From assembly GCA_016926755.1 (NCBI GenBank), contig JAFGNZ010000163.1:1-36953 (forward strand): DNA of 36,953 nucleotides, given 5' to 3'. Source of the stretch: Myxococcaceae bacterium. GTDB taxonomy: Bacteria > Myxococcota > Myxococcia > Myxococcales > Myxococcaceae. The position numbers were made by a program, and so were the translations under genes. Numbering within the stretch: position 1 is the first letter of the stretch; every line of letters begins with the position of its first letter. The notes below the pieces were generated by a model. It was not told the DNA's origin. It searched no databases and was given only the letters and a program-made list of their open reading frames with translations. Positions 19,476 through 36,342 of this stretch are shown in pieces.

Positions 19476-19802
19476 CTACTCCTCGCGATGGGAGACGGGC
19501 TCCTCTCCTCGCGCTCGCGCCTCCTCGTCCTCGTCCGCCTCGCGGAGCTTGATCCCCGACTCCAGGCGCGCCTGACGCTCACTCGCCGTCCATGACTCCT
19601 CGGCGTCCCGAGCGTGCACCCGTGAGGCAGCCGCGTCATCCTGCTCGCCGGTCCACGTCGTATGCCCGCCTGCGAAGCCCTCCAGTGGGCGTGCTCCCCG
19701 CAGGGCCTCCACCTCCAGATCCCTCTGCTCCTGCTCCCGGAGCCGCTGCCGCTCCTGCTCGCGCTCGCGCTGGTGCTGCTTGTCGATGGAGTCATCAGCC
19801 AT
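19476..19802 (-). CDS. Small highly charged hydrophilic protein, unknown function
   Basis: The 108-residue protein has no recognisable domain. Residues 5-32 are a run of Gln, Arg and Glu (QHQREREQERQRLREQEQRD) likely to form a single charged helix or coiled coil. The C-terminus is strongly acidic (LREADEDEEARARGEE). ATG 19802 was chosen because CCTCC at 19811-19815 on the plus strand is a perfect GGAGG site on the coding strand, 8 bases away; a longer frame to 20057 has no such support. The composition suggests an intrinsically disordered cytoplasmic protein. It is divergent from the Rpn-family gene. Confidence 0.6.
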   Translation of the reverse strand: MADDSIDKQHQREREQERQRLREQEQRDLEVEALRGARPLEGFAGGHTTWTGEQDDAAASRVHARDAEESWTASERQARLESGIKLREADEDEEARARGEEPVSHREE

Positions 19803-20055
19803 GCCCGGCACCTCCTGCCTCAAGGTGCGAACTGTCGTCGCGCGCGTCATCCCGTCAGCGGCTGCTCGTGGCCGCATGCCAGGACGGGGGGCGTGTGGCG
19901 AGGGAAGCGCCACGGGGAGCCGTCTCCCAGGCTGGACTCGCCGTCCACGTGGAGAGAGTCTCAAGAGCGAGGGACGGGCTTCGAGGCCTCTCGGGCGCAA
20001 GAGAACTGCTCCTTCGCCGCTGAGCTGGCACGCCCCGTGCTGTGCCTCGTGCGCC

Positions 20056-21042
20056 ATGCCGGGCCCTCATGATCTCTTTGCACGCTTCACCTTCGGTCAC
20101 CCCGAGCGGGCGGCGGCCGAGCTGCGCGCCGTATTGCCGCCGGAGGTGGTGGCCCGGGTGGACTGGAGCAGCCTGCGCCGGGAGCCGGGCAGCGTGGTGG
20201 ACCCGGAGCTGAGGGAGAGCCAGAGCGACCTGCTGTTCTCGGCGCGGCTCCTGAGCGGACAGCCGCTGCTGCTCTATTTATTGCTGGAGCACCAATCCTC
20301 CGTGGACCGGTGGATGGCGCTGCGGATGCTGCGCTACGTGGTGCGCCAGCTGGAGCACTGGCGCCAGGAACACCCGGAGAGCGAGGTGCTGCCTGTGGTG
20401 GTCCCGGTGGTCATGTACCACGGGTTGGAGGGAGCATGGACGGCCCCACGCCGGATCGAGGAACTCTTCGATCTCCCAGCAGAGCAGGAACAGCGGGAGG
20501 GCTGGCGGGTGTGGGTGCCGCGCTTCGAGTATCTGCTCGACGACTTGACGAGCGAGCGTGAGGAGGCGCTGAGGGCGCGCGCCGGGCCTCCGCTGGCGCG
20601 GCTGGCCTTTCTGGTGCTGCGCTATGGGCGCTCCAGAGGCCTGGCCCAGCAGTTGGAGAGGTGGACAGCCGTGTTCGCACAGGTCTACGCAACCCCCGAG
20701 GGTCTTGAGGAGCTGCGCGCAGTGGTAAACTACCTGCTCGAAGTGGGAGACCTGTCGGCACGCGGGCCGATGCGGCGCGTGTTACGAACCGTGGTGGGTA
20801 CTCAACGAGTGGAGGAACTGATGAGGACCATGGCGGACGAATTCCGAGAGGAAGGGCGGCGGCAGGGGCGGCGCGAGGGACGGGCCGAGGATGTGCTGCG
20901 GATCCTCGCTGTGCGTGGCGTTGCCGTGGACGAAAAGACCCGCGAGCTCATCCTGACGTGTACGGATCTGGTGACTCTCGATCGGTGGTTCGAGCGCGCC
21001 TTGACCGCCACTCACCTGTCGGAGTTCCTGGAAAGCCAGTGA
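20056..21042 (+). CDS. Rpn-family PD-(D/E)XK nuclease / putative transposase
   Basis: The 328-residue protein begins HDLFARFTFGHPERAAAELRAVLP, typical of the Rpn (recombination-promoting nuclease, YhgA-like) family. The PD-(D/E)XK core is visible: Asp in ESQSDLLFSARL, and LEHQSSVDRWMALRMLRY, where the E-x-Q replaces E-x-K as usual in this family. A variable helical C-terminus follows, with the REEGRRQGRREGRAE segment often found in these proteins. E. coli RpnA-E are Ca-dependent nucleases that raise recA-independent recombination; a phage-defence role has also been suggested. ATG 20056 begins the conserved domain. The asparagine synthetase starts 35 bases after its stop. Confidence 0.85.
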   Translation: MPGPHDLFARFTFGHPERAAAELRAVLPPEVVARVDWSSLRREPGSVVDPELRESQSDLLFSARLLSGQPLLLYLLLEHQSSVDRWMALRMLRYVVRQLEHWRQEHPESEVLPVVVPVVMYHGLEGAWTAPRRIEELFDLPAEQEQREGWRVWVPRFEYLLDDLTSEREEALRARAGPPLARLAFLVLRYGRSRGLAQQLERWTAVFAQVYATPEGLEELRAVVNYLLEVGDLSARGPMRRVLRTVVGTQRVEELMRTMADEFREEGRRQGRREGRAEDVLRILAVRGVAVDEKTRELILTCTDLVTLDRWFERALTATHLSEFLESQ

Positions 21043-21077
21043 GGCCCGCATCGTTCGGGCCTGGAGGAGAGCGGCAC

Positions 21078-23003
21078 ATGTGTGGCTTCGTTGCATCCGT
21101 ATCGAGTCGAGAGCGTGTCTCTGCCGAGGCGCTGCGCCGGGCCACGAAGAAGCTGCGGCATCGCGGGCCTGACGCCGAGCGCGTCTGGGTGCCCGAGCAC
21201 GGCCGGGTCGGCCTGGGCCACGCGCGGCTGAGCATCATCGACCTCACGACCGGCGACCAGCCCATCGCGGGAGAGGATGGCGGCCTCCACATCGTCGTGA
21301 ACGGCGAGTTCTACGGCTTCGAAGCGATCCGCGCGGAGCTCGAGTCGCAGGGACACACCTTCAGGACGCGCTCCGACAGCGAGATTGCCCTCCACCTCTA
21401 CGAGGACCTCGGCGCCCGCTGCCTGCACCGGCTCCGGGGCGAGTTCGCCTTCGCCATCTGGGACGAGCGGGACGGGGTGCTGTTCGCTGGGCGGGATCGC
21501 TTCGGGATCAAGCCCCTGTACTACGCGCTTCACAACGGGGCCTGCCACGTCGCCTCCGAGATCAAGGCGCTCGCTGAGCTCGGCGTGACGCTGCGTTGGG
21601 ACCGGGAGGCCGTGGTCGACCTGCACTCCGGAGTGATGAACGCTCCGGACCGGTCGGCCTTCGACGGCATCTACCAGGTGCCGCCGGGCTGTTACCTGAT
21701 CAGCGACGGCACCCGCGCGAGCATTCATTCCTATTGGGACTGGGATTATCCGACCGCGGACCAGACGCGGCTCGACCGGGATCCCCAGGAGTGGGTGGAG
21801 AGGGTGCGGACGGTCCTCGAGGAGTCGATCCGCCTGCGTCTGCGCGCCGACGTGCCGGTGGCCTGCTACCTCAGCGGCGGCGTGGATTCCTGCGCGGTGC
21901 TGGGCATCGCCTCACGGCTCTCTCCGCGGCCGCTGCGGGCCTACACCTTGTCGTTCGACCATGCCGACTACGATGAGCGCGCCCTCGCGGAGGAGCAGGC
22001 GAAGCTCTGCGGGGCCGAGTTCTTCCCCATCGACATCCGCGCGGAGCACCTCGCCGAGCATTTCGCGGACGCCGTCTACCACGCCGAGCGGCCCTTCGCG
22101 AACGCGCACGCCGTCGCCAAGTTCTTCTTGAGCCGGGCCGTCCGCGACTCGGGGGGGAAGGTCGTCCTCACGGGCGAGGGCGCTGACGAGGTCTTCGCCG
22201 GCTACCCCTTCTTCCGCCGGGACATGCTCCTGCACAACACCCAGGGGCAGGATCCGGAGGCGCTCAAGGCGCTGCTCGCGCGGCTGAATGAGACCAATCG
22301 CGTCGCCCAGGGGTTGCTCATGCCTCGGGGGGCCAGCCGCTCCCTCGAGAACGTGAAGCGCATCCTCGGCTTCGTTCCCACCATCATGGAGGCGTGGGCC
22401 CAGGATGGAGGAGCGATGTCGGGCCTGCTCTCCGAGGACTTCAAGGCCCAGTTCCGCGACCGTGACACCTTCCGCGCCGTCCTCAGCCACCTCGACATCG
22501 AGCGGCAGCTCAAGGGCCGCGACGCGGTCAACCAGTCCCTCTACCTCTGGGCGAAGACGGCTCTCCCGAACTACATCCTGAGCAACCTCGGGGACCGCAT
22601 GGAGATGGCGCACTCGGTGGAGGGGCGTCTGCCCTTCCTCGATCACCACCTCGTGGCCGAGGCCACGCGCATGCCGATCTCCATGAAGATCCACGGCATG
22701 ACGGAGAAGTACGTCCTGCGCGAGGCCGCCCGGCCGGTGCTCTCCGAGTCCGCCTTCAAGCGCCAGAAGCATCCCTTCCTCTCTCCGCCGTCCACCCTGC
22801 AGCTGGAGGGTGGCCTGTTCGCCCTCGTCCAGGACACGCTCCGGGGCTCGGCGCTCGAGAAGGCCGGGCTCTACGATCGCAAGAGGGTCGTCGGCCTCCT
22901 CGATGCGATCCCGGGCATGGATCCCGGGAGGCGGGCTGGCATCGATCCCGGTTTGATGGTGATGACCAGCATGTGCCTGCTGCATCAGCGGCTGGGGCTC
23001 TGA
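21078..23003 (+). CDS. asnB: Glutamine-hydrolysing asparagine synthetase
   Basis: The 641-residue protein begins M-C-GFVA, so Cys2 becomes the N-terminal nucleophile that releases ammonia from glutamine. The glutaminase domain (2-215) has RHRGPD, LSIIDL, NGEFYGF and GRDRFGIKPLYY. The synthetase domain (about 240-610) has the ATP-pyrophosphatase loop SGGVDS at 266-271, LTGEGADEVFAGYPFFR, and EGRLPFLDHHLV. All motifs of a working amidotransferase are present. It may make asparagine for the cell; members near polyketide clusters are also known to amidate carboxylic acid intermediates. Its 3' end meets the biosynthetic operon with 4 bp between stops. ATG 21078 follows GGAGG at 21063-21067. Confidence 0.9.
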   Translation: MCGFVASVSSRERVSAEALRRATKKLRHRGPDAERVWVPEHGRVGLGHARLSIIDLTTGDQPIAGEDGGLHIVVNGEFYGFEAIRAELESQGHTFRTRSDSEIALHLYEDLGARCLHRLRGEFAFAIWDERDGVLFAGRDRFGIKPLYYALHNGACHVASEIKALAELGVTLRWDREAVVDLHSGVMNAPDRSAFDGIYQVPPGCYLISDGTRASIHSYWDWDYPTADQTRLDRDPQEWVERVRTVLEESIRLRLRADVPVACYLSGGVDSCAVLGIASRLSPRPLRAYTLSFDHADYDERALAEEQAKLCGAEFFPIDIRAEHLAEHFADAVYHAERPFANAHAVAKFFLSRAVRDSGGKVVLTGEGADEVFAGYPFFRRDMLLHNTQGQDPEALKALLARLNETNRVAQGLLMPRGASRSLENVKRILGFVPTIMEAWAQDGGAMSGLLSEDFKAQFRDRDTFRAVLSHLDIERQLKGRDAVNQSLYLWAKTALPNYILSNLGDRMEMAHSVEGRLPFLDHHLVAEATRMPISMKIHGMTEKYVLREAARPVLSESAFKRQKHPFLSPPSTLQLEGGLFALVQDTLRGSALEKAGLYDRKRVVGLLDAIPGMDPGRRAGIDPGLMVMTSMCLLHQRLGL

Positions 23004-23007
23004 GGCT

Positions 23008-23652
23008 TCACCCCAGCTCCGCCGCCTGCGATTCCCTCGCGGCGGCGCTCCGCCTCAGCCAGAGCTCGGCGGCCACCAGGTTGGGGACCCAGCAGAGCCA
23101 CGCGACCAGCTGGTACGTGAAAGGCCAGTCGCCGCGTGAGAAGAGCATCAACAAAGGCAGCCAGATCCGCAGGGTGATGCCGGCACAGGTCAAGGCGTAG
23201 CTGCGAATGATCCACTCGCGGTGCCGGGCGAACTGGCGCTGGCGCGCCCTGAGGAAGGCCAGCCCGGTCGTCGCTCCCCAGGCCACCGCCAGCGCCCCAA
23301 ACCCCAGGTGGGTCGTCATCCCCTGGTCCGTGAAGGGGGTCAGCAGCAGGGCCGCTCCCATCCCCGCGGCGACCGAGGCCACGTAGAGCCGGCCCAGCCA
23401 GCGGTGGCGCCCCCGGGAGGCGGGGCGGAGCTGGAGCGCTCCGATGACCAGCGCCACCGCCCCCCCCACTATGTGGACCCGGAAGGCCGCCGCTCTGAGC
23501 GCGAAAGACGGCCGCAACTGAGGGGGAGGGTAGCCGCTCACGGCCACTACCAACGCGTAGGCGGCAACCAGCGCCGCCAGCACGAGCAAGACTCTCAGCG
23601 CCTTTCGGCCCTTCACCGGCTTCAGCCGGTCCATGGCAGCGGCTTCGCTCAT
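23008..23652 (-). CDS. DUF2306-like membrane protein
   Basis: The 214-residue protein has about six membrane helices and several conserved histidines and arginines near the membrane surface: FRVHIVGGAVALVIGALQL, RHRWLGRLYVAS, THLGFGALAVAW and FARHREWIIRSYALTCAGITLR. This matches DUF2306, of unknown function, whose His/Arg pattern recalls heme-binding or quinone-reactive membrane proteins. It is the last gene of the type I PKS operon, 22 bp after the halogenase stop. It might serve in export, self-protection or a redox step, but nothing proves a link to the product. Start chosen at ATG 23652; GTG 23670 is the alternative. Confidence 0.7.
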   Translation of the reverse strand: MSEAAAMDRLKPVKGRKALRVLLVLAALVAAYALVVAVSGYPPPQLRPSFALRAAAFRVHIVGGAVALVIGALQLRPASRGRHRWLGRLYVASVAAGMGAALLLTPFTDQGMTTHLGFGALAVAWGATTGLAFLRARQRQFARHREWIIRSYALTCAGITLRIWLPLLMLFSRGDWPFTYQLVAWLCWVPNLVAAELWLRRSAAARESQAAELG

Positions 23653-23674
23653 GGCTCCAGGGTTCGCCACGGTC

Positions 23675-25186
23675 TCAGGCCTGGAGGGTGTCCCGGGTCT
23701 TCACCACTATCTTGAGGAACGATTCCTTCATGCCCTGGAACCAGCTCTCGGCGCGTCCCATCTCGACGAGGCCGAGCGAGCCAGTCTTCATGCGGATGTA
23801 GTGGCCATCGATGGCGTCGAAGGGATCTCCAATGTTCTCCTCGAGGGCCTTGTTGGCCATGAGCTTCGCGACCGGGTTTCCGGTCGGCATGTTGTGGAGC
23901 TCGAACATCATGTCGGTCGTGTACCGCATGGCGCGCTTGACGATGTCGAGGCTGAGATCCTTGTGGTTCACGTCGGTGTTGCCCGACACCACCTGCTGGA
24001 TGAGGTGGAAGGCGTCCTGGAAGCTCTGCGCCTCGAGCCCCTGGATGGTGTAGGCCTCCTGCTGGCGGATCTGGTTGTAGAAGCCGGCGACCAGGACGAC
24101 GAAGCGCGTATAGGCGCGGCGGACGTAGCGGTCGTGGAACCGCGCCGCCTCGTCTGCCTTGAGCTCGCCGCGGAGCTCGGCGCAGATCGTGGCGGCCGAG
24201 GAGAGCCCCCCGAGCATCGCGAGGTGCACGCCCGACGAGAACAGCGGGTCGATGAACGCGGCCGCGTCGCCAGCGAGACGGAAACCCGGGCCCGAGAACC
24301 GCTCGGAGACGTAGGAGTAGTCCGACCATTGGTGCAGCTCGCTCTCGAAGGTCGCGCCCTCCAGCAGCTTCTGGATGTCCGGCGCCAGCGAAATGCCTTT
24401 CCGATAGACCGCATCGTTGTCACCGAGCTCCGCCTTCCACTTCTTGTAGGTGTCGCGATGAATCACGACCCCCAGGCTGAGGAGCCCGTCATGAAGCGGG
24501 ATGGCCCAGATCCACCCGCTGCTGTCGGCGAGCGCTTCCATCGAGAACGCGCCCGGGTGCTGAGTGCCCTGCTCGTCGGTGTAGGGGCGGGCGTTTCTCC
24601 AGTAGCCGCCGATGGCGACGTTGGCGAAGGTCTCTTGGAAATGCCTGTTGCGCAGGTACTTCTGGGCCATGAGGCCGGTGAGCCCAGAGGCGTCGACGAG
24701 GTAGTCGAATTCGGTGCGGCCCTTGGCGCCCGACTTCTGCGACCATTCGACGGCCACGGGGCGGTCCTTCTCAAAGACAATCTCCTGCACGGCGGTCTCT
24801 TCGAACACCTGCGCCCCGCATTCGCGGGCGTGCTCGAGCAGGAGGTGATCGAACTCGGAGCGGCGGACCTGGTAGCTGTACTTGTAGGTCTGGTTGCCCC
24901 GGAAATCGATGTGGCCGGCGGGCATCCCCTGCTTGACGCGGAAGAACCCGCCGTACTTCTTCACGAAGCCGAAGTTGTCGACCTTCTCGCGGACGCCTGC
25001 CAGCTCGAGGATGGGGTGAAGGGCTGTCAGCAGCGATTCGCCAATGTGGTAGCGGGGAAACTTCTCCCGCTCGAGGAGCGTGACTTCGACCTTTTCGCGG
25101 GCGAGCAGGGTCGCGGTTATCGCTCCCGCGGGACCACCCCCGATGACCAGCACACGGCTTCGCGAAGCAGGTACGGATTGCGACAT
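23675..25186 (-). CDS. FADH2-dependent halogenase
   Basis: The 503-residue protein has the dinucleotide fold GGGPAG at 16-21 and FPRYHIGESLL at 43-53, typical of flavin halogenases that act on aromatic or carrier-bound substrates. Lys76/Lys77 in FGFVKKYGGFF are in the place of the catalytic lysine that forms or guides HOCl. The halogenase signature WIWAIP (W-x-W-x-I-P) is at 225-230, and the FAD-binding GFRLAGDAAAFIDPLFSSG follows. The W-x-W-x-I-P motif blocks the monooxygenase reaction, so halogenation rather than hydroxylation is expected; chloride versus bromide cannot be told. The likely substrate is the aromatic ring made by the type III PKS upstream. A reductase to supply FADH2 is not encoded nearby. 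ATG 25186 has a GAGGA site 5 bases away. Confidence 0.85.
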   Translation of the reverse strand: MSQSVPASRSRVLVIGGGPAGAITATLLAREKVEVTLLEREKFPRYHIGESLLTALHPILELAGVREKVDNFGFVKKYGGFFRVKQGMPAGHIDFRGNQTYKYSYQVRRSEFDHLLLEHARECGAQVFEETAVQEIVFEKDRPVAVEWSQKSGAKGRTEFDYLVDASGLTGLMAQKYLRNRHFQETFANVAIGGYWRNARPYTDEQGTQHPGAFSMEALADSSGWIWAIPLHDGLLSLGVVIHRDTYKKWKAELGDNDAVYRKGISLAPDIQKLLEGATFESELHQWSDYSYVSERFSGPGFRLAGDAAAFIDPLFSSGVHLAMLGGLSSAATICAELRGELKADEAARFHDRYVRRAYTRFVVLVAGFYNQIRQQEAYTIQGLEAQSFQDAFHLIQQVVSGNTDVNHKDLSLDIVKRAMRYTTDMMFELHNMPTGNPVAKLMANKALEENIGDPFDAIDGHYIRMKTGSLGLVEMGRAESWFQGMKESFLKIVVKTRDTLQA

Positions 25187-25261
25187 GGAGTCCTCTTTTC
25201 AGTCGTTCTTTTCAGGCAAGTCTAGCATGGGTGCACTGTGAGCCTCTTCGCGCCGCGCCCC

Positions 25262-26383
25262 CTACCAACGGAGGAGCACGGCCTCCTGGGAGAATCCCGG
25301 TCCCATGGCGACCATCATCCCGTACGTGCCGGGCGGTGGCGGAGCTCGTTGGATCTCTTCGAGCATGAAGAGCACGGTGGAGGAAGACACATTGCCGATC
25401 CGGGCGAGCGTCTCTGCGCTGAGCGAGAGCGTCGACTCGGGGAGCCCCAGCACTTCAGCGGCTGAGCGAATGACCTTGGGACCGCCTGGGTGGACAATCC
25501 AGCGCCCGATGTCACCGATGCCGAGCTCGTGCTCTTTCAAGAGGCCGAGGATGACCTCGCCGAGCCCCGCCTTCGCGCGCACTGGAACCTCCGCGCCGAG
25601 GATGTTGCGAAGGCCCGTGTCGAGCAGCTCGAGCCCCATGAGGTGAGTGGTGTTCGGCAGGAGCATGGATCTCGAGCCGAGCACCCGCGGGCTGCCCGAA
25701 GACTTCGCGAGCGGATGCTCTCTCCCGACCAGGAGGACGGCGCTGGCGCCATCCCCGAAGATCGCGGAGAACACGACGTTCGACACGATGATCTCGTCGC
25801 GCGACGGATCCGTCTTGCGCTGCTGCTCGAGCGCGAGAAAGTCACGCTGCAACGAGCCATGCCACATGCCCGAGCAGAGCTCGGCGCTCATGAGGACCAC
25901 CGCCTCGCTGGGGTGCCCCGCGAGGTAATCGGAGATGCGAGCGATACCCGCCGCACCCGCCATGCAGCCCAGGCCGACGAAGGGCATGCGCCGGGTGTGC
26001 GTTGGAAAGCCAATGCAGTTCATCAGCCGCGCCTCGAGCGACGGAATGGCCACGAGGTTGGTGACCGAGGCGAGCAGCGAGATGTCCTTCGGCCGTAGAC
26101 CCGCGCGGTCGAGCAAGGCGTTCACATTCGTCTCGCACATCTCCACCGCGATGGCGTTGGCGTCTTCCATCTGGTAGCCGGTACCCAGGGGGTCGGCGAA
26201 GCGCTCCAACCCGAACGCGCAGTACCGCCCCCGCACCTGCGAGTTGCGGAAGATGTTCTGCACCGCGCCTGGCGCGAGGCCAAGATCGTGCGCGGCGAAG
26301 AACTTCGCCCACTCGGTGCTGAGGCGCTCCTGATCGTAGTAGGTGGGCGGAAGATCGGTTGCGACGGCGACGATGGTGCTCAT
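25262..26383 (-). CDS. Type III polyketide synthase (chalcone/stilbene synthase family)
   Basis: The 373-residue thiolase-fold homodimer-type enzyme has the full catalytic triad: Cys140 in VGLGCMAGAAGI, His298 in VHPGGPKV and Asn331 in GNVSSSTV. VTNLVAIPSLEARL (about 107-120) and the C-terminal GPGFSQEAVLL loop are also typical. Such enzymes load an acyl starter on Cys, extend it with malonyl-CoA and cyclise the chain to resorcinols, phloroglucinols, acylated phenols or pyrones. Its ATG overlaps the stop of the type I PKS by 4 bp, right after the ACP-coding end. This suggests direct hand-over of an ACP-bound chain, as shown for Azotobacter ArsA/ArsB phenolic lipids. Ring type and number of extensions cannot be read from sequence. 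Confidence 0.9.
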   Translation of the reverse strand: MSTIVAVATDLPPTYYDQERLSTEWAKFFAAHDLGLAPGAVQNIFRNSQVRGRYCAFGLERFADPLGTGYQMEDANAIAVEMCETNVNALLDRAGLRPKDISLLASVTNLVAIPSLEARLMNCIGFPTHTRRMPFVGLGCMAGAAGIARISDYLAGHPSEAVVLMSAELCSGMWHGSLQRDFLALEQQRKTDPSRDEIIVSNVVFSAIFGDGASAVLLVGREHPLAKSSGSPRVLGSRSMLLPNTTHLMGLELLDTGLRNILGAEVPVRAKAGLGEVILGLLKEHELGIGDIGRWIVHPGGPKVIRSAAEVLGLPESTLSLSAETLARIGNVSSSTVLFMLEEIQRAPPPPGTYGMMVAMGPGFSQEAVLLRW

Positions 26384-29300
26384 GCTGGGCTCTCGTGAGT
26401 AGGCGAAGGTGCAGCGCCAGTGCTTTCGTTCCCCATCAACTCCAAGACGTGCTCGGCGAGCTGGTGGAGCGACGGCCCCTCCAGCAGGCGCAAGAGCGAG
26501 AGGTTCACGCCCGCCGTACGCTCGATCAGGTTCGCCAACTCCGTCGCCATCATGGAGTCGAGCGCCATGTCCTTGAGCGTCACCGATGGGTCGAGCTTCT
26601 CCGTCGAGATGCCAAACACGCGCGCGACGATCTCGCGGAGCGCGTTCGTGAGGAGGGGCAGGCGCTGCTCGGCGGGGGCGACCGCCAGCGCTTCGCGGAG
26701 CGACGCCCCTGTCGCGGCGCTGTCTTTCGTGTCGCGCGCGGCGACGGCGTCGAACCGTGGGCGTGCGGCGGCCTGCGGATAGATGCGGCCCCAGCGGCGC
26801 CAGTCCGTGCCCATGGGCGTACAACGCGACACCCGGGCGCGCAGGGCGAAGTCGAGCACGGCGAACGCCTGATCCATTGACAAGGGGATCGCGCCTTGCT
26901 GCTCGAGACGCCTCGCGACGCCCTCATCTCGGGCGACGAGGCCCGCGTCGAGCGCGCCCCAGTTGAGGCTCGTCGCCGGCAGCCCGAGCCCCCGTCGATG
27001 GTCGGCGAGCGCGTCGAGGAACGAGTTCGCCGCGGCGTAGGACGCTTGTCCCTGGAAGCCCAGCACGGCCGACGCGGAAGAGTAGAGGAGGAAGAGATCG
27101 AGAGTCCGCTTCGCGGTCAGCTCGTGCAGGTTCCACGCGCCGAGCACCTTGGGAGCCATGACCGCCGACAGCCGCTCTGAATCGAGGCGCAGCATGAAGT
27201 CGTCGTCATAGGTCGTCGCAGCGTGCACCACGCCGCGGAGCGGCGGGAGCTCGGCGTCCATCCGTTCGAGCAGCGTGGCGAGCTCGGCGCGAGAGGTCAC
27301 GTCGGCGCGCGCCACCCACACACGCACGCCGTTTCGACGGAACGACTCGATGCGCTCCGCCTCCGCTCCGCGCGCCTCGCCGCGGCGGCTCGCGAGGACC
27401 AGGGAGCGTGCACCGCGCTCCACGAGCCATTGCGCGGTCGTCAGACCAAAGCCAGCGAGCCCGCCGACGACGAGATAGGTCGCGTCGGCACGGAGTGAGG
27501 GGCCGTGGCGCGGGGGCGCGATGGAGAGCTTCTCGTGCTCCGACCTTTGAAGGACGACTGGCAGGAGGCCCTGCCGCGCCTGCTCGTACGCGCGCCCCGC
27601 GTCGGCGAACGAGAACACTCTCGCTGGAGGCGGACGCAGGCTGCCCTCCGCAAGGAGCCGGGAGACCTGGGAGAGCAGGGCGGAGAGCCGCTTCGGTTGG
27701 GCCTTCGCCATGCTCGGCAGATCGACGCGGTCGATGCCGAGGTTCTGGACCTTGGTGGCCTCGAGCGGCGTCGCGCCGTCCGCCGCCAGGTCGACGAACC
27801 GGCCTCCCTCTCCGACAGCCAGGAGGCCCCGCTTGCCGAGCGGGCCTTCGATCGTGTTGATCACCAGATCGACGCCGCGCCCTTCCGTGAGCCGTTCAAG
27901 CGCATCGGCCCAGCGGCCGTCCCGTGCGCGGCCCACGACCTGTGCGCCCAGCTCGGTGAGGAGCCGCGCGGTCGCCTCGTCGTCGGCGGTCGCGAGGATA
28001 CGCGCGCCACGGAGGCGGGCCAGCTTCACCGCCGAGAACCCGGGCGTCGTGTCCGCTCCATGCACGAGCACGGTCGATTCGCGATCGAGCGATGGTGCCA
28101 GCTCCAGCGCGCGCACCGCCGCTGCGAGCGCAAGCGGCGAAGCGGCTTCGATCGCCGGTCCCGGCTGGCGGTGGGCGACGAGCTGAGCGGGCGCCATGAA
28201 GGTGCTGGCGTGACAACCGGGAGCCACAGCGATCACGGGGTCGCCGGCCTTCATGTGGTGCACACCCTCCCCGACCGCCACCACGGTCCCCGCGCACTCC
28301 GCGCCCAGCGCTCGGCGGGCGTGCAGATCGGCGACATCGCGCAGGCTCACGGCCGTGGCCTCCACGCGGACCTGGATCTCGCCCGGCCCGGGCCCCGCAT
28401 GAGCGCGCTCTCGCCAGACGACCGGTGAACCGTCGCCCCTGCGCGATGGCTCCAGAGAGAACGGGAGCTCGTCGCCGGACACCTCTCGATGGCCCGCGGC
28501 CTCCGGGTCGAGCCGTCTCTCGCGGTGGACGTGCTGGACGGATCCGCGGAGGGCAAGCTCCGTCTCGGGGCCGTCCGCCAGAAGCTCCCTGGCCAGCGCC
28601 GCCCACTCACGGGGGGCGTCGCCGGAGGCTCCGCCGAGGTCCACGAGTGTGCAGCGGTGCTGCGGATGCTCGTTCGCGGCAACGCGCCCGAGTCCCCAGA
28701 TCGACGCATGGCTCGGATCGACGCGCGCGCCGCCCGGCCCCTGAGCGGACGTCGTCACCAGCCACAACCGGGGCGCGTCCTTCCATCGAACCTTGGCGAG
28801 CGCCTGGATGGCGGCCAGCGCCCCCGTGCCATGCTTCATCGCCTGCTCCGCCGGCGTACTTGCCTGGGCGGCATCGGTGGCCAGGAACACCAGGCCCGCG
28901 CACGGCGGTGAGGCGGTCCGTAGCTCACCGAGCGAACGGCGGAGCGAGGCCAGATCATCGGGCGCCGCGTGGACGCAGCGGGCGCCGTGTTTCTCGAGCT
29001 CGCCAGCGAGGAGCCGCGCACCCTCACCTCCGGAGGAGACGAGGAGCCACGTCCCCGCGGCTCGATCCGGCGCTGGCCGGGTGCCCGCCTCCTGCTCCGC
29101 GGGCTGCTCCTGTTCCCAATGGGAAGCGTAGAGAAGGCCGTCGAGCTCCTCGGACCTCGCCGCGGCCGGTCCCGAGATCCGCTCGCAGTGAAGCCCGCGC
29201 ACCTCGGCTACCGGCGCTCCCTCTGGGTCGAAGAGCATCAGGTCGGCCCGCACCGAGCGCTCGTCGCGGGCGATGACACGGCCCCAGACGAGCATGCGCG

Positions 29301-32300
29301 GCGGCGTCCCGTCCGAGTGGAGGACGAAGCGATCGATCCGCACCGGCACCATGACGGTGCGCTCCTCGCTGGCTGGCTGCGCGGCGAGCAGGGCGTGCAG
29401 CGCGGCGTCGAGGATCGGGGGGCTCAGCGGCTGCGTGGAGGCCTCCTCACTCTCGGAGCCCTTGGCGGCGATCTCCGCCAGGCACTCGTTCTCTCCAATC
29501 GAGATGCGCGTCACCTTGCGGAACGCCTCTCCGTAGCGCAGCCCGCGAGAGTCGAGCCGCGCGTAGATCTCCTGGGACTCGAGGACCTCGCCGCAACGCT
29601 GCTCGATGGCGCGCGCGTCCACCGAGAGCGGCGGAAAGTGCGTGCGCTGGATGATGTGGGCGGCTGCGTGGAGCCTCCACTGTGAGTCACGTGCCCGCAC
29701 GCGGCTGTGCACGGACACGCGCTGTGCGTCCTCATCGATCAAGGTCCGGAGCAGCACCTCGTCCGCGCCGATCACGAGCGCGCGCCGGAGCTCGATGTGC
29801 TCGAGCGCGAGGGTGCTCTCACCCAGTGCAAGCCGGGCCGCGGCGATGGCGGACAGGATGTAGCCGGCCCCGGGGAACACGACGGCCGCCTCGACCTGGT
29901 GATCCGCGAGCCACGGAAAGAACTGCGCGTTGACCTGCCGCTCCCACGCGGGCTGTGGCCCCTGCACGCGGGTGCCGGGCAGCACGGGCTCTCCATCGCC
30001 GATGCGCTCGCTGCGTGAAGCGGCCGCCTCCACCCAGTGCCGCTCGCGCTGCCACCTGTAGGAGGGGAGCCGGACCCTCTTCGCCGGCTCCGCGAAGAGC
30101 CGCTGCCAATCGGGGCTCAGCCCCAGCGTGTAGAGCTCGCCGAGGCACGCGAGGAGCGTCTGGCGCTCGGGCTGTTCCCGGCGCAGCGTCGTCAGCGCCG
30201 TGGCCTGCCGGCCCGAGCGAGAGATTCCTTCCTTCAAGGCGGACGACAGGACGGGGTGGGGGCCGACCTCGACGAACGTGTCGAAGCCATCGGCGAGCAT
30301 CGCGTCAACGGCGTTCGCGAAGAGCACCGGCTGACGAACGTTCCGCCACCAGTAGGCCGCATCCCAGGAGCCCTCGGTCCCTCCGGTCACGGTCGAGTAG
30401 AGCTTGAGGGTGGGGCGCTGGGGGCGAATCGAGCCGAGGGCCTCTCGGAGCTCGTGCTCGATGCAGTCCATCTGGGCGCTGTGGTAGGCGATCTCGACGC
30501 GAAGCTCGCGGTGGAAGACCTGTCGCTCGGCGAGGATGCGCGCAATCTCCGCGAGGCCCGCGTGATCGCCAGCGAGCGTCACCGCGGTCGTCGAGTTGAT
30601 GGCTGCGATCGAGACGCCGGAGGCGTGCCTGGCCAGAAAGCTCTCGGCCTCGGGCACCGAGAGCCCGACGGCCATCATGCCCCCGCGCCCCGCGGTCGTC
30701 GCTTGAAGGCGTGCGCGATGAACGCTGACGAGCGTGGCCTCTCGCAGGGTGAGCGCTCCCGCGGTGTACGCCGCGGCGACCTCACCGACGCTGTGCCCCA
30801 CGACGGCATCAGGGCTGATGCCCCAGGAGCGAAGGAGCGCCGCGAGCCCCGCCTGGAGGGCGAAGTTCGTCGTCTGCGCGACCAGGGTGAGCGCCATCTG
30901 GGACTGCGCCTCGTCGCGCAGGAGCTCTTCGATCACCGAGGGTCCACCGTGCGCACGCATCGCCGCGTCGCAGGCCTCCACCTCGGCGCGGAAGACGGGC
31001 TCGGACGCGAGGAGCTCGCGGCCCATGCGCCACCACTGCGGCCCCATTCCGGTGAAGACGAAGGCCACGCGCGGCCGTCGATCCCGGCGCGCACGCCCGA
31101 CGAACGCCGCCGGCGTCCGCTCGCCCCGCGCAACGCTCTCGAGTGAGGAGGCGAGCTCGCTTCGGCGAGCGGCGACGATGGCCACCCGGTGCTCATGGTG
31201 GGTTCTGCTCACCGCCGCGGCGCGCGCCAGCTCGTAGACGTCCTCCGCCGCGTTGCCCGCGCTCAGCTCGGGCAGCTGGAGCCAGGCCGACGCCGCGTCG
31301 CGAAGGGCCCCGGCCGAGCGCGCGGAGAGGACCACCAGCTCAGGCTGCGAGCCCCGCTCGCGCGCTCTCGCGATGCTCTTGGCGTGAGGCTCCCGTGCCA
31401 GGACCACGTGCGCGTTCGTCCCGCCATAGCCGAACGAGTTCACACCGGCGAAGGCCTCCCCCTCTTCGCCGTCGCCGCGGCCAGGCAGCGGCTGGGCCAC
31501 GTTCGCGACGCGCAACCCGAGCGAGTTGAAGTCAATGGCGGGGTTGGGCGTGGCGAAGTGCAGGTGAGGCGGCACCTCGCCGTGACGGAGCACGAGCGCG
31601 GCCTTGATCAGCCCCGCCATCCCCGACGCGGCCTCGAGATGGCCGATGTTCGTCTTGACCGAGCCAATCAAGCACGGGCGCTCCGGAGGCCGTCCCGAAC
31701 CGAGGACCGCCCCCAGCGCGGACGCCTCGATCGGATCGCCGACCGGTGTGCCGGTACCGTGGGCCTCGACGTAGGCGACGCTCGAGGGCGAGACGCCCGC
31801 CCGCTCATAGGCGAGGCGGAGCAGCCGCTCCTGCGCGGGGCGAGAGGGCACCGTGATGCCGTCCGAAAATCCGTCCTGGTTGACCCCGGTCCCCCGAATC
31901 GTCGCGTAGATGGGGTCGCCGTTGGCGAGCGCCGCGGAGAGCGGCTTGAGCACGGCCACGCCCGCGCCCTCGCCGCGCGCATAGCCGTTCGCGCTGGCGT
32001 CAAAGGCCTTGCATCGCGCGTCCGGTGAGAGGAACCCCCCCTTGCACATGACCACGACGAACCCGGGATCGAAGATGAGGTTCACCCCGCCGACGAGCGC
32101 GGTGGAGCAGTCGCCGCTCCACAGGCTCATGCACGCCAGGTGCGTCGCGACGAGTGACGAGGAGCACGCGGTATCGATGGTCTGGCTCGGGCCCCGGAGA
32201 TCGAAGGTGTACGAGAGCCTCGCCGCCAGCATCGTGAAGCCGACGCCCGTCGCCGTGTGGCTGCCGATCTCGTCGCGGTTCAGAGGAGACGACTGGAGCA

Positions 32301-32751
32301 CGAGGCTGTCCATCGTGAAGCCGCCGACGAAGACCCCTGTGTTGGTGCCCGCGATCCGCTCGAGCGGGATGCCCGCGTCCTCGAGCGCCTCCCACGCCAC
32401 CTCGAGCAGGATCCGCTGCTGAGGATCGAGCCTCGCCGCCTCGCGCGGAGAGAACCGGAAGAACTCCGCATCGAACTCGTCGATCTTCTGTTGCAGGAAA
32501 CCGCCCTGCCGGATGTAGAGCTTGCCAGGCCTGGCCGGATCGGGATCGTAGTAGCGCCGCCAGTCCCAACGATCTTTCGGGACGTCGACGACGGCGTCCG
32601 AGCCCTTCATGAGCAGCTGCCAGAAGCTCTCCGGATCGTGTGCGCCTCCGGGAAAGCGGCAGCCCACGCCGACGATCGCAATGGGCTCGCGCGTCCCGTG
32701 CGCAGCGCCTGCCGTTCCGGTTCCATTCGCTGACGGGGGGGCTGCGCTCAT
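26380..32751 (-). CDS. Single-module reducing type I polyketide synthase
   Basis: The 2123-residue protein has these domains in order: KS 23-450 (Cys196 in DTACSSS, His331, His371); AT 560-880 (Ser654 in GHSVGE, AYHS at 755-758, suggesting malonyl-CoA); DH 930-1195 (His951, but Ala955 in place of Gly in HxxxGxxxxP; Asp1115); a pseudo-KR 1230-1420; ER 1450-1735 (degenerate NADPH motif [12 protein letters not shown]); KR 1755-1935 (GGLAGFG, Ser1892, Tyr1905, Asn1909); ACP 2035-2110 with Ser2066 in LDSMM. There is no thioesterase and no docking domain. With one module and no release domain it probably works iteratively and passes its chain to the overlapping type III PKS. The weak GGAG site lies 12 bases before ATG 32751. 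A phosphopantetheinyl transferase must come from elsewhere. Confidence 0.92.
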
Positions 32752-32937: not shown

Positions 32938-35550
32938 TCACCGCAGCGTGCGCAGGAAGGTGTCCACGGCCTCCACCCGACTGCTGAAGCCCGAGCCGCC
33001 CTGCTTCCAGGCCTCGCGCGCCTCCACGGCCAACCGCCGGGCCTGCGTGGGCTTGTGCAGCGCCGCGAAGACACGCGCGAGCACGAAGCGTGTGTCCGCG
33101 GCCTCGTAGGGGCCGTCGTCGCCCCGAGCAACGAGAGCCAGGGAGCGTTCGAGCAGCGGCCGGGCCCGCTCCGGCGCTCCGGACGCGAGCTCCACCTCGC
33201 CCAGATTCGACAGCACCGCCGCGAGCTTGGGGTGGTCCGGTCCCCAGGCCTTCTCCTGGCCCGCCAACACGTGGGCGAAGGCCGCCCGCGCCTCGGCGAG
33301 GCGGCCCTGCATGAAGACGGCGGCGCCCAGGCCGAGCTCGCTCGACAGCGTCGCCACGTGCTCGGGGCCCCGCGCCCGGCGCAGGATCTCGCTGGCGCGA
33401 CGCATCAGGGGCTCGGCCTTGGCGGGCTCGCCTCTTCGCAGCCACACCGCGGCCATGTTGTGCGACACCTGAGCGATGTCCGGGTGCTCCCCTCCCAGAC
33501 GCTCCACCAGGGTCCGCTGCGCCGCCTCGAAGTCCTGGAGCGCCTCGTCATAGCGGCCCATCTGCCAGGCAATGGTGCCTCGGGAGAGCCGGGCTCGAGC
33601 CGCGCCGAGGCTCGTGGCACCCGAGCGCTTCTCCTGCTTCGCGAGGGCCTGCTGGGCGAGCTTTAGCGCCTCGTCATAGCGGCCAGCCACCATGCGGAAC
33701 TCCGCGGCGGTGCGGTCGATCCTCGCGGAGAGCGCCTCGTCGCCCCCACTCCGAAGGAGCAGCGCACGGCCTATCCGCAGCGCGCGCTCTCCTTCATCGA
33801 AGCGGCGCAGGTGCACGCCCTCAATCCATAGCAGGCCGAGCGCCGCCTCCGAGGCCGCGGCGTCCTCACCGAGCTCCAGCGCCGTGGTGAGGGCCTCCAG
33901 GAAGCTGGCGGAGGCGCGCGTGTTGTCCTCCATGCGGCCCCGCGCCTCCGCCAACGCCAGCGCGGCGTCCACCCGGCGCGCGGGGCTCCCGCTCTTCTCG
34001 AGCTCCTGGTGCGCGGCCTCGAGCAAGGGCGTCGCCTCGGCGCAGCGCCCGGTCGCGCACAGGGCTCGCCCGCGAGCGATCCTCGGGTCCGCGGGCACCT
34101 CCCCTCCCGAGAGCAGCGGGCGCGGGCCCTCGCAGCGATCGGGCGCTGGCAGACGCTCCACCGCCTCCAAGGCGCGGCCGAGCCCCTCGGGTTCGATCAG
34201 CACGTCCAACAGCGCGGACAGCTGCAGCCGCTGCTGCTCCAGACACCCCAGCTGCCGCAGGTACACGCTCTCGGAGCGAGTACGGCGCTCATACGTCTCC
34301 GCGCAGGCATGGGTGGCGGTGCGCTTCCAGGACGTCGTCCACGCCTCGAGCGCCTGGAGCGTGGCCCCGCGACTTCCCGCGACGAAGGCGGGCGCATGCG
34401 CGAAGCGCTCGTCCAGCCGGGCCACCACCGCCGGGTTCCAGGTCGGTTCGAGCTCCGCGGTCACGCCCTCGCAGTGCGCCACCGGACGCAAGAGGAGCCC
34501 CCCGGCGCCGATGAGCCCCACCCCCCCGAGCACGGCCAGCACCCGAGGCCATCGCGGGCGTCGCGGCGCCAGCGCCTCGAGCAGCGCCCGCATCGAGGGG
34601 AAGCGTTCCGTCGGCGCCATCCGGAGCCCGCGGTCGATCACCTGCTGCACGTGACGCGGCAGCCGCGCGGTGTCCTTGACCCGCTCGCCCCGCAGCAGCG
34701 CCTCGCGGTAGGTCTCCAGGCGGGTGCCGGCGAAGGGCCGCACCCCGTGGAGCACCTCGGAGAGGGTGACGCAGAAGCTGAACTGATCCGCGCGAGCGTC
34801 CGCGGGCTGGCCCAGAAAGAGCTCGGGCGCCACGTAGCCCGCAGTCCCCGCGATGCCGGCCTCGGAGCCCTCTCTCGGAGCCGCCAGACCGAAGTCCGTC
34901 ACGTAGGCATGGCCCGAAGCCTCGACGAGGATGTTGTCGGGCTTGACGTCCCGGTGGACGAGCCCCGCCTCATGCGCCGCCGCCAGCCCCTCGCCGGCCT
35001 GCCGCAGCAGCGCGAGCCGGTGCGAGAGGCTCCCCGGGTGCAGCGCGAGCCACGCTCGCAACGTGTGGCCTTCCACATACTGCATGGCCACGAACGTCCA
35101 GCCCTGGTCCTCGGCCACGTCGTAGACGGCGGTGACGTGCGGGTGGTGCAGCCGCGCCAGCGCGCGCCCCTCCTTCAACAGGCGCTCGAAGTGCACCCGA
35201 GAGGACTCTCCGGCGCGAGGCATCCGCAGCTTGAGGGCGACGGTGCGGTGGAGCAGCGGATCGTGCGCGGCGTAGACGACACCATTGGCTCCCTGCCCGC
35301 GCTGCTCGAGCAGCACATAGCGCGACAGGGGCGTGCCCGGCTCGGGGAGCCGCTCTGGAGGCCGCGCCCCGCCCAGCGTCCCGGTGACAGGTACCACCGA
35401 GCCCTCCCGGATGACCTCCGCCACCACCAGCCGACACTCGGCGCACACGTCGAGGTGCTCCCGGACAGCGTCCGCTGACTCCGCGGCCAGCGTGCCCTCC
35501 GCGACGGCGGCCAGCTGATGATCCGGTGGGTGGGGCGAGGTAGGTTTCAT
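32938..35550 (-). CDS. Ser/Thr kinase with anti-sigma-type zinc motif and TPR tail
   Basis: The 870-residue protein starts with a short helical domain with H32-x3-C36-x2-C39 (HLDVCAEC), the zinc pattern of zinc-type anti-sigma domains. A Hanks kinase domain (78-330) follows with glycine loop GQGANGVVYAA, Lys107, HRD 199-201, DFG 219-221 and APE 241-243, all intact. A membrane helix (about 338-358, VLAVLGGVGLIGAGGLLL) separates it from an extracytoplasmic region of some 500 residues with many TPR-like helices (RYDEALKLAQQALAKQE, RYDEALQDFEAAQRTL, RRGEPAKAEPLMRRA). It is divergent from a sigma factor gene 103 bp away. The likely role is to hold or modify that sigma in response to a signal sensed by the TPR domain. 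The N-terminal zinc motif fused to a kinase is the point of interest. Confidence 0.88.
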   Translation of the reverse strand: MKPTSPHPPDHQLAAVAEGTLAAESADAVREHLDVCAECRLVVAEVIREGSVVPVTGTLGGARPPERLPEPGTPLSRYVLLEQRGQGANGVVYAAHDPLLHRTVALKLRMPRAGESSRVHFERLLKEGRALARLHHPHVTAVYDVAEDQGWTFVAMQYVEGHTLRAWLALHPGSLSHRLALLRQAGEGLAAAHEAGLVHRDVKPDNILVEASGHAYVTDFGLAAPREGSEAGIAGTAGYVAPELFLGQPADARADQFSFCVTLSEVLHGVRPFAGTRLETYREALLRGERVKDTARLPRHVQQVIDRGLRMAPTERFPSMRALLEALAPRRPRWPRVLAVLGGVGLIGAGGLLLRPVAHCEGVTAELEPTWNPAVVARLDERFAHAPAFVAGSRGATLQALEAWTTSWKRTATHACAETYERRTRSESVYLRQLGCLEQQRLQLSALLDVLIEPEGLGRALEAVERLPAPDRCEGPRPLLSGGEVPADPRIARGRALCATGRCAEATPLLEAAHQELEKSGSPARRVDAALALAEARGRMEDNTRASASFLEALTTALELGEDAAASEAALGLLWIEGVHLRRFDEGERALRIGRALLLRSGGDEALSARIDRTAAEFRMVAGRYDEALKLAQQALAKQEKRSGATSLGAARARLSRGTIAWQMGRYDEALQDFEAAQRTLVERLGGEHPDIAQVSHNMAAVWLRRGEPAKAEPLMRRASEILRRARGPEHVATLSSELGLGAAVFMQGRLAEARAAFAHVLAGQEKAWGPDHPKLAAVLSNLGEVELASGAPERARPLLERSLALVARGDDGPYEAADTRFVLARVFAALHKPTQARRLAVEAREAWKQGGSGFSSRVEAVDTFLRTLR

Positions 35551-35630
35551 GACGGCTCAGAGGGGTATTTGCCCGGAGGAGCGCAAGGTGTCCAGTGGCC
35601 CCATGGACGCAGGGGCATCGTGGAAGTCAC

Positions 35631-35640
35631 AACCTTTCGG
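35631..35640 (+). promoter_or_regulatory. AACCTTTCGG element, copy 3 (before sigma gene)
   Basis: AACCTTTCGG lies 12 bases before ATG 35653 of the sigma gene, or 30 before the alternative ATG 35671, in the divergent region with the kinase gene. It is so near the start that, if it is a promoter element, the downstream ATG would be favoured. It is identical to copies 1 and 2. Confidence 0.45.
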
Positions 35641-35652
35641 TATGACGACCCC

Positions 35653-36342
35653 ATGGAGCTGAGTGTCGACATGGAGGTGGTGCGGCGTTGCCTCGCGGGA
35701 GAGGCCGAGGCGCTCCGGCGGTTCGACGCGCTGCTGGCGGAGGCGGCCCGGGTGCTGGAGCGCCGGGTTCCCGACGCGGCACGGCGCGAGGACATCCTCC
35801 AGGACGTCCGCGGGAAGCTCCTGGTGGCGGAAGCAGGTGCCACGCCGAAGCTGAAGCAGTTCGGGGGCGAGTCCACCCTGGTGAGCTGGCTCCGCACCGT
35901 GCTGGTGCGCGAATCCCTCAGTCACCTGCGGGGACGCGGCCCCAAGCAGGGCGAGCTGAGCGAGCTGGTGGAGTCGCTTCCCGCGCGCGGCCTGTCTCCC
36001 GAGCTGGACTTCGTGCGCCGCTCGCACCGGGTCGTCTTCACCGAGGCCTTCACCCGTGCCCTCGAAGGGCTCGAGCCCCGAGAGCGCTCGGTGCTGTGGT
36101 TGTCCTTCGTTGAGGGGCTGAGCATCGACCAACTCGGCGTCCTGTACGGCGTGCACCGGACGACAGCGGCCCGCTGGGTGGTCCGCGCGCGCGAGCGCCT
36201 CGTCGAAGGCACGCGGGCCTGGCTGTCCACGGTGCACCGGCTTGACACCCAGGATATCGACGAGCTCCTGGCCAGCCTCCAGAGCCACCTGGGCGTGTCG
36301 CTGCTGAGCCTGCTGCGCATGGAAGAGCCCGAGGTCACCTGA
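35653..36342 (+). CDS. Sigma-70 family factor of the myxobacterial kinase-linked type
   Basis: The 229-residue protein has region 2 (about 15-105: LVSWLRTVLVRESLSHLRGRG, following REDILQDVRGKLLV) and region 4 (about 135-195: LEGLEPRERSVLWLSFVEGLS, then the helix-turn-helix IDQLGVLYGVHRTTAARWVVRA). It resembles the Myxococcales-specific sigma group (TIGR03001-like) whose genes stand beside Ser/Thr kinases. Unlike the classic ECF it has a longer C-terminal tail (LDTQDIDELLASLQSHLGVSLLSLL), possibly a contact for the partner kinase. ATG 35653 has no ribosome site; ATG 35671, with GGAG 12 bases before it, would give 223 residues and is equally possible. Confidence 0.8.
   Translation: MELSVDMEVVRRCLAGEAEALRRFDALLAEAARVLERRVPDAARREDILQDVRGKLLVAEAGATPKLKQFGGESTLVSWLRTVLVRESLSHLRGRGPKQGELSELVESLPARGLSPELDFVRRSHRVVFTEAFTRALEGLEPRERSVLWLSFVEGLSIDQLGVLYGVHRTTAARWVVRARERLVEGTRAWLSTVHRLDTQDIDELLASLQSHLGVSLLSLLRMEEPEVT

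Follow-up and report, generated by a model that had tools for sequence, protein, structure and literature searches.

Few systems are known in which a type I polyketide synthase (PKS) hands its chain directly from an acyl carrier protein (ACP) to a type III PKS. Phenolic lipids arise in this way in Azotobacter, where the type I synthase of the Ars system passes its acyl chain on to a type III partner. In the social amoeba Dictyostelium, the type I–type III PKS fusion StlB and the flavin halogenase ChlA, encoded by the adjacent gene, lead to chlorinated DIF-1 and to antibacterial dibenzofurans, in accounts that state StlB-type fusions to be known nowhere else (PMC9489281, PMC12767764); chlorinated alkylresorcinols from Dictyostelium have been described as well (PMC6356392). 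The type III PKS CylI makes alkylresorcinols, and hybrid type I/III systems of its clade were stated in 2021 to be unidentified in phyla other than cyanobacteria (PMC8086630). Here we analyze a 36,953-nucleotide stretch of a Myxococcaceae bacterium (GCA_016926755.1, contig JAFGNZ010000163.1, our contig C249; hereafter the window), which carries a minus-strand operon at positions 23008–32751 encoding a type I PKS (PKS1), a type III PKS (PKS3), a flavin halogenase (HAL) and a DUF2306 protein. With moderate confidence, taking all steps together, we propose that these genes would make a ring-halogenated polyenyl resorcinol by way of a polyenoyl-ACP. Our confidence is higher in the CylI-type ring closure and the hand-over from the ACP than in the polyene chain or in where the halogen is placed.

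A compact operon of four intact genes

The four genes form a real operon. Its genes and their features are given below in the order of transcription.

26380–32751, minus strand: PKS1, single-module type I PKS of 2123 amino acids, ketosynthase (KS)–acyltransferase (AT)–dehydratase (DH)–enoyl reductase (ER, degenerate)–ketoreductase (KR)–ACP (Pfam, motifs, KS tree)
27568–28389, minus strand: degenerate ER domain of PKS1, residues 1455–1728 (bounds by Pfam; alignment with seven comparators)
26446–26643, minus strand: C-terminal ACP of PKS1, residues 2037–2102 (Pfam; DSM serine, followed by a short tail)
26380–26383, minus strand: ATGA stop/start overlap of PKS1 and PKS3 (read in the sequence)
25262–26383, minus strand: PKS3, CylI-clade type III PKS of 373 amino acids with Cys140-His298-Asn331 (CylI identity, tree, model)
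26036–26074, minus strand: loop of PKS3, residues 104–116, one residue shorter than outside the CylI clade (9/9 clade rows, 0/49 others)
25802–25858, minus strand: 19-residue insertion of PKS3, residues 176–194 (9/9 clade rows, 0/49 others)
23675–25186, minus strand: HAL, flavin-dependent halogenase of 503 amino acids with GGGPAG, WIWAIP, Lys77, Asp313 and Phe316 (Trp_halogenase, 108.8 bits, cut-off 21)
23008–23670, minus strand: DUF2306 protein, predicted membrane protein of 220 amino acids (PF10067, 131 bits, cut-off 31.6)

A first-pass annotation of the sequence had described the four minus-strand genes, the 4-bp overlap, an intact Cys-His-Asn triad in the type III PKS, the WIWAIP motif of the halogenase and the DUF2306 membrane protein. 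The coordinates and Pfam domains agree with it, and each of these features is present. The spacings from PKS1 to the DUF2306 gene are −4, +75 and +4 bp, and all four genes are free of stops and frameshifts. The longest open reading frame (ORF) in the type III frame (25262–26824) overshoots the PKS3 gene; the start chosen for PKS3 has support from the alignment with CylI, which begins at the same Met. The G+C content is 71% in PKS1 and the DUF2306 gene, 66% in PKS3 and 64% in HAL, and the lower values of the latter two are a weak hint that the operon may be of mixed origin.

Comparison with described hybrid systems

The hand-over proposed for the operon is the same as in the Azotobacter Ars system, which is not known to include a halogenase; the likeness is one of description rather than of compared sequences. 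In the StlB/ChlA/DmtA pathway of Dictyostelium, too, a type I builder hands to a type III cyclase and the flavin halogenase gene is adjacent, so that by analogy the window set can be viewed as a split bacterial version of the StlB/ChlA logic (PMC9489281). The first-pass statement that no described pathway has exactly this set must be narrowed to this extent: the same functional set is described for Dictyostelium (PMC9489281), but in an amoeba and with one fusion protein, whereas in the window two bacterial genes overlap by 4 bp and no Steely-type fusion is present. Unlike what we propose here, DIF-1 involves a saturated hexanoyl starter, an acylphloroglucinol product and a methyltransferase. 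PKS3 matches Steely1 weakly (59.8 bits) and by best hit belongs to a different type III lineage. No description of the gene set of the operon was found in the open-licence literature.

With the cylindrocyclophane type, PKS3 shares the CylI clade, the same two indels and a position directly after a type I PKS gene. That type ends in a β-keto module, whereas the window operon has one iterative-looking module with a KR, a DH and a damaged ER. It also has a flavin halogenase where the cylindrocyclophane clusters have CylC, and it comes from a different phylum. None of the four operon genes has a Pfam match to a FAAL (AMP-binding) or a dimetal halogenase; CylA is the FAAL of the cylindrocyclophane clusters. 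Set against the features of a (7.7)paracyclophane cluster, namely a FAAL, a CylC-type halogenase and a CylK-type alkylating enzyme, the operon genes lack AMP-binding and the halogenase is of the flavin type; genome-wide, where AMP-binding was the one such feature searched, there were 42 matches. Finally, the cylindrocyclophane halogenase is described as acting on the alkyl chain, with the halide later lost (PMC8406957, PMC8916777), whereas we propose halogenation of the ring.

PKS1 looks like an iterative polyene synthase with a damaged ER

PKS1 fits a single KS-AT-DH-(ER)-KR-ACP module. Its Pfam domains are ketoacyl synthase, acyltransferase, dehydratase, zinc-type reductase, KR and PP-binding, with no thioesterase (TE) family among its Pfam matches, and the KS Cys/His/His, AT GHSVGE, DH His and Asp, KR Tyr and ACP Ser motifs are all present. 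The earlier description of a single-module reducing PKS that ends in an ACP and lacks a TE is thus borne out except for the word "reducing", because the NADPH motif of the ER is lost. In place of GG[VL]G, which is kept in all seven ER comparators (five myxobacterial PKSs, MAS and SpnB), PKS1 has TTPG, within the motif HGADTTPG (residues 1564–1571, window 28039–28062). The N-terminal stretch of the ER is shortened relative to the comparators, and there is no Lys at the GK.D position, where four of the seven have one. Loss of the NADPH motif makes a polyene chain likelier than a saturated one.

For the comparison genomes we use codes (G001 and so on), and their phylum names are inferred. The KS of PKS1 is sister to KSs of G001, G003, G004, G005 and G160, with support of 100/99 in trees of both 22 and 37 rows. 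The rows came initially from DNA matches, among the matches listed, and were later widened by ER-KR and plasmid matches; a long-branch row (L049) was left out of the second tree. The sister PKSs of G005 and G160 are single-module proteins of 2172 and 2152 residues with the order KS-AT-DH-KR-ACP, and no ER match was found at E 1e-6 in either of these two. They are referred to here as MchA-like, after the myxochromide PKS MchA, and PKS1 shares with them the single module, the size and the domain order. In G005 the two genes after the MchA-like PKS carry nonribosomal peptide synthetase (NRPS) condensation and adenylation domains by Pfam, whereas the gene after PKS1 is that of a type III PKS, not of an NRPS; the neighbors of the G160 PKS are large ORFs. 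The G005 protein also has a longer C-terminal tail: 57 residues follow the DSM serine of the ACP in PKS1, compared with 90 and 92 in the two MchA-like PKSs, and we read the missing piece as a probable NRPS docking tail. The AT of PKS1 carries IAYHS, close to the VPYHS found in these relatives, and we read this motif as malonyl-specific. Among six matches to PKS1 in its own genome, PKS1 itself is the only one of full length. From its sequence, then, PKS1 looks like an MchA-like enzyme that builds polyenes iteratively and whose ER is damaged.

We also considered whether the type I and type III genes had been inherited together from cyanobacteria, which is not supported, as the Moorena KS beside a CylI-like enzyme is not sister to the KS of PKS1.

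PKS3 belongs to the CylI clade

A search of Protein Data Bank (PDB) sequences with PKS3 returned CylI at 340.9 bits, followed by Pks11 at 224.5. PKS3 is 45% identical to CylI, 47–48% to Moorena proteins and 45% to an Anabaena protein. The first-pass annotation had proposed a type III phylogeny against ArsB and ArsC, among others; in our tree of 58 rows, built without ArsB/ArsC, PKS3 groups with the G160 enzyme and with seven rows from cyanobacteria, of which four are near-identical sequences from Moorena, in a CylI clade supported at 100/99. Quick trees without the insertion columns gave SH-aLRT values of 99–100 for this clade, with and without three long rows. The two indels listed above mark the same clade; they were found in this analysis and do not come from a published definition of the clade. 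An AlphaFold (AF2) model of PKS3 has a pLDDT of 89.6, and its best eight Foldseek matches are CylI chains (TMq 0.94–0.96), with Pks11 next (0.88–0.89). By their PDB titles, CylI structures contain a resorcinol product, an acyl-SNAC or a β-ketoacyl-SNAC. As the closest relative of PKS3 is a resorcinol former, the "aromatic or pyrone head" suggested earlier is more probably aromatic. By analogy with CylI, PKS3 likely forms a resorcinol from an acyl or β-ketoacyl thioester.

Four of 195 genomes of the phylum, including that of the host, have a type III match at E 1e-72, and of the other three only G160 falls within the CylI clade. L035 and L036, found at the same threshold, were rejected as clade members, as they lack the indels and are placed outside. 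PKS3 was likewise rejected as an ordinary myxobacterial alkylpyrone synthase: the host has its own copy at C200 in a large myxobacterial group, and PKS3 lies outside that group. We link the C200 group to the conserved myxobacterial alkylpyrone cluster described in PMC12766979.

The other myxobacterial genome with a CylI-clade hybrid type I/III cluster is G160 (L054, L057), where the type III gene lies at L054:8392–9975 on the minus strand. Besides the type III PKS, the G160 cluster encodes a type I PKS of modular build, a protein with the order KS-AT-TE, a methyltransferase of the ICMT type, a polyketide-cyclase-like domain, a P450 and a Trp_halogenase-matching flavoprotein 23.6% identical to HAL. 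The layout around its type III gene resembles that of Moorena, where a PKS with a TE, a CylI-like type III PKS, an ICMT, an O-methyltransferase and a sulfotransferase stand in a row (L038), with an ABC transporter upstream. Beside these two layouts the compact window operon is the odd one. Among the type III PKS rows, those of a Stenotrophomonas and a Lysinibacillus plasmid (L073/L074) are near-identical, with branches of 0 and 0.03, which may reflect a wrong label on one of the records or a transfer of the plasmid.

HAL resembles the phenol halogenase RadH

The best PDB match to HAL, and its best solved relative, is the fungal radicicol halogenase RadH/Rdc2 (314 bits, the next match having 207). 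HAL is bacterial and RadH fungal, with 40.7% identity between them, but the essential Lys and Asp and a conserved Phe are kept: K77, D313 and F316 of HAL align with K74, D325 and F328 of RadH. The Lys and Asp are also kept in other variant-B rows, so these two residues do not single out RadH. In RadH, K74A and D325A were reported to abolish activity, and the enzyme to need a free phenol OH and to place the halogen ortho to it (PMC5637929).

Among the 195 genomes of the phylum, a HAL match at E 1e-60 was found in the host genome only. One of 292 cyanobacterial genomes has a match at 1e-50 (37%). No HAL-type gene was found beside cyanobacterial CylI-like genes, four of eight genomes giving weak matches only (best 53.9 bits, with the L037 locus left out).

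Proposed pathway and its alternatives

In the first step, PKS1 would act iteratively with malonyl-CoA, its KR and DH working and its damaged ER idle, to build a polyenoyl chain on its own ACP. The chain would be retained there, PKS1 having neither a TE nor the longer tail of its NRPS-coupled relatives. PKS3, probably made in translational coupling with PKS1 across the observed overlap, would move the chain from the ACP to Cys140, extend it with malonyl-CoA and close a resorcinol ring as CylI does. HAL, with FADH2 from a reductase elsewhere, would then form hypohalous acid, hold it on Lys77 and halogenate the ring next to a phenolic OH. The DUF2306 protein might place or export the lipophilic product, which is a guess. 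These reactions, and with them the product, its chain length and its halide, are proposed from what the sequence shows: the order of the genes and their overlap, their domains and motifs, and their positions in the trees. That a type I ACP hands its chain to a type III PKS and that the product is then halogenated was already put forward in the first-pass annotation and is still the best reading. Its "phenolic lipid" survives as a phenol, but given the iterative polyene-type PKS1 and its damaged ER, a polyene phenol is likelier than one with a saturated chain.

Several observations pull the other way. The operon set was found in one genome only and in none of the other comparison genomes, where a peptide-pattern scan of the contigs used two patterns and was not exhaustive. 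The polyene assignment draws on MchA as the iterative polyene synthase of myxochromides, and on the PKS-NRPS-NRPS layout of G005 as a match to MchA-MchB-MchC, both of which are background rather than results of this analysis; the adjacent NRPS genes were checked by Pfam in G005 alone. Over the full length of PKS1, L107 scores 1192 bits (39.6%) and the MchA-like PKSs 1216 and 1213 bits; with scores this near-equal, the KS tree alone separates them. The ER fold still lies above Pfam cut-offs (ADH_zinc_N_2, 56.2 bits), and the catalytic Lys is present in only four of the seven comparators, so that the ER of PKS1 could be active. CylI was crystallised with a β-ketoacyl substrate, and the partners that CylI-clade enzymes have in cyanobacteria and in G160 end, unlike PKS1, in a module without reductive domains. 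The pairing of HAL with RadH is moderately supported, at 98/96 in 20 rows but at 89/95 in 16 rows, with four long rows left out, and in pairwise BLAST four cyanobacterial/actinobacterial plasmid halogenases score 300–335 bits against HAL versus 295 for the RadH piece. Taking the RadH residues and placement together with these higher-scoring bacterial relatives, a phenolic substrate of HAL is likely and a resorcinol plausible.

If the ER of PKS1 worked, or an ER elsewhere acted in trans, the same hand-over would give a halogenated 5-alkylresorcinol with a saturated chain, a phenolic lipid. We regard this outcome as doubtful, if not lightly dismissed. Along with the persisting ER fold it has in its favor that MAS, which by name has a working ER, is the best full-length PDB match to PKS1 (897.8 bits), and that CylI itself is described as an alkylresorcinol maker (PMC8086630); it is opposed by the TTPG found where all seven comparators keep GG[VL]G, by the shortened N-terminal part of the ER, and by a KS sister group without an ER match in both members examined.

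That PKS3 forms a tri- or tetraketide α-pyrone, to be halogenated by HAL, is unlikely. Although Pks11, second to CylI among the solved enzymes, carries the name α-pyrone synthase, and myxobacterial type III PKSs have been tied to alkylpyrones (PMC12766979), PKS3 falls outside the type III lineage of its own host and inside the CylI clade with both indels, and CylI has a resorcinol-product complex.

It is rather improbable that PKS1 and PKS3 make a phenol while HAL, merely sharing their transcript, acts on another substrate such as a carrier-bound tyrosine. The bacterial halogenases that score 323–335 bits pairwise do adjoin NRPS or PKS genes, one of them presumably in the cryptophycin cluster. 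The seven window proteins scanned, however, include no NRPS or tyrosine gene, the residue at the RadH F328 site is Phe in HAL but Leu in the NRPS/PKS-adjacent rows, and both trees place HAL with RadH.

A silent or decayed cluster, with the ER damage marking a PKS drifting out of use, is very unlikely, for although the ER motif loss and the lack of the set in other comparison genomes would fit, the four genes have no stop or frameshift, all other catalytic motifs are kept, and related PKSs without an ER match are conserved in other genomes.

Genomic context of the operon

The host assembly comprises 9.59 Mb in 409 contigs, with a G+C content of 70.5% and an estimated contamination of 3.67%. We take the window to be a true myxobacterial contig on the basis of a sigma factor family match, a histidine kinase DNA match and the sister relationship of the PKS1 KS to same-genus KSs. 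The sigma factor (35518–36342) matches a Myxococcales family of NCBIfam at 157.7 bits (cut-off 154.6), and a same-genus genome matches the histidine kinase gene (17462–19333) at 77% on the DNA level, among the matches listed. No empty site could be defined by synteny with same-genus genomes: in the two stretches compared (G002 C7 and G006 C52), the histidine kinase gene alone was matched, among the matches listed (>150 bp).

Directly upstream of PKS1 (32938–36342) lie this sigma factor gene and a divergent Ser/Thr kinase gene, whose product starts with zf-HC2 and has TPR repeats; the two are a possible regulatory pair. At the other end, a glutamine-hydrolysing asparagine synthase gene (20958–23003, plus strand) is convergent with the operon, its stop 4 bp from the DUF2306 stop, and could have a role in the pathway or be unrelated. 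The stretch 20026–21046, over an ORF at 19780–21042, recurs with 69–78% DNA identity at multiple sites of G002 and G006, among the matches listed, and by this repetition looks like a mobile or multi-copy gene. A 958-residue repeat protein (12–2888, plus strand) ends in a Gly-Cys stretch, a hydrophobic segment and an Arg-rich end, a tail that looks like a MYXO-CTERM sorting signal.

Implications

Tentatively, the operon may be a third, separately assembled set of type I builder, type III cyclase and flavin halogenase, in which a myxobacterium would have joined its own iterative polyene synthase with a resorcinol former of the CylI type and a halogenase for phenols, parts known individually from myxobacteria, cyanobacteria and fungi. 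The resulting halogenated polyenyl resorcinol would be a pigment resembling aryl polyenes, produced by enzymes with no relation to those of the known aryl-polyene pathways, and would parallel in a bacterium the chlorinated alkylphenols that social amoebae make. The operon's single type I module, type III enzyme and halogenase make it the smallest bacterial set met in this analysis, small enough that it could be rebuilt in a laboratory host. With the window and G160, CylI-clade hybrid type I/III systems now reach two myxobacterial genomes. Should its product be a halogenated polyene phenol, the operon would offer a test of whether polyene synthases can be re-routed from a peptide partner to a former of aromatic rings, through a change of C-terminal tail and partner, and would provide a bacterial system for comparison with the DIF-1 pathway of the amoeba.

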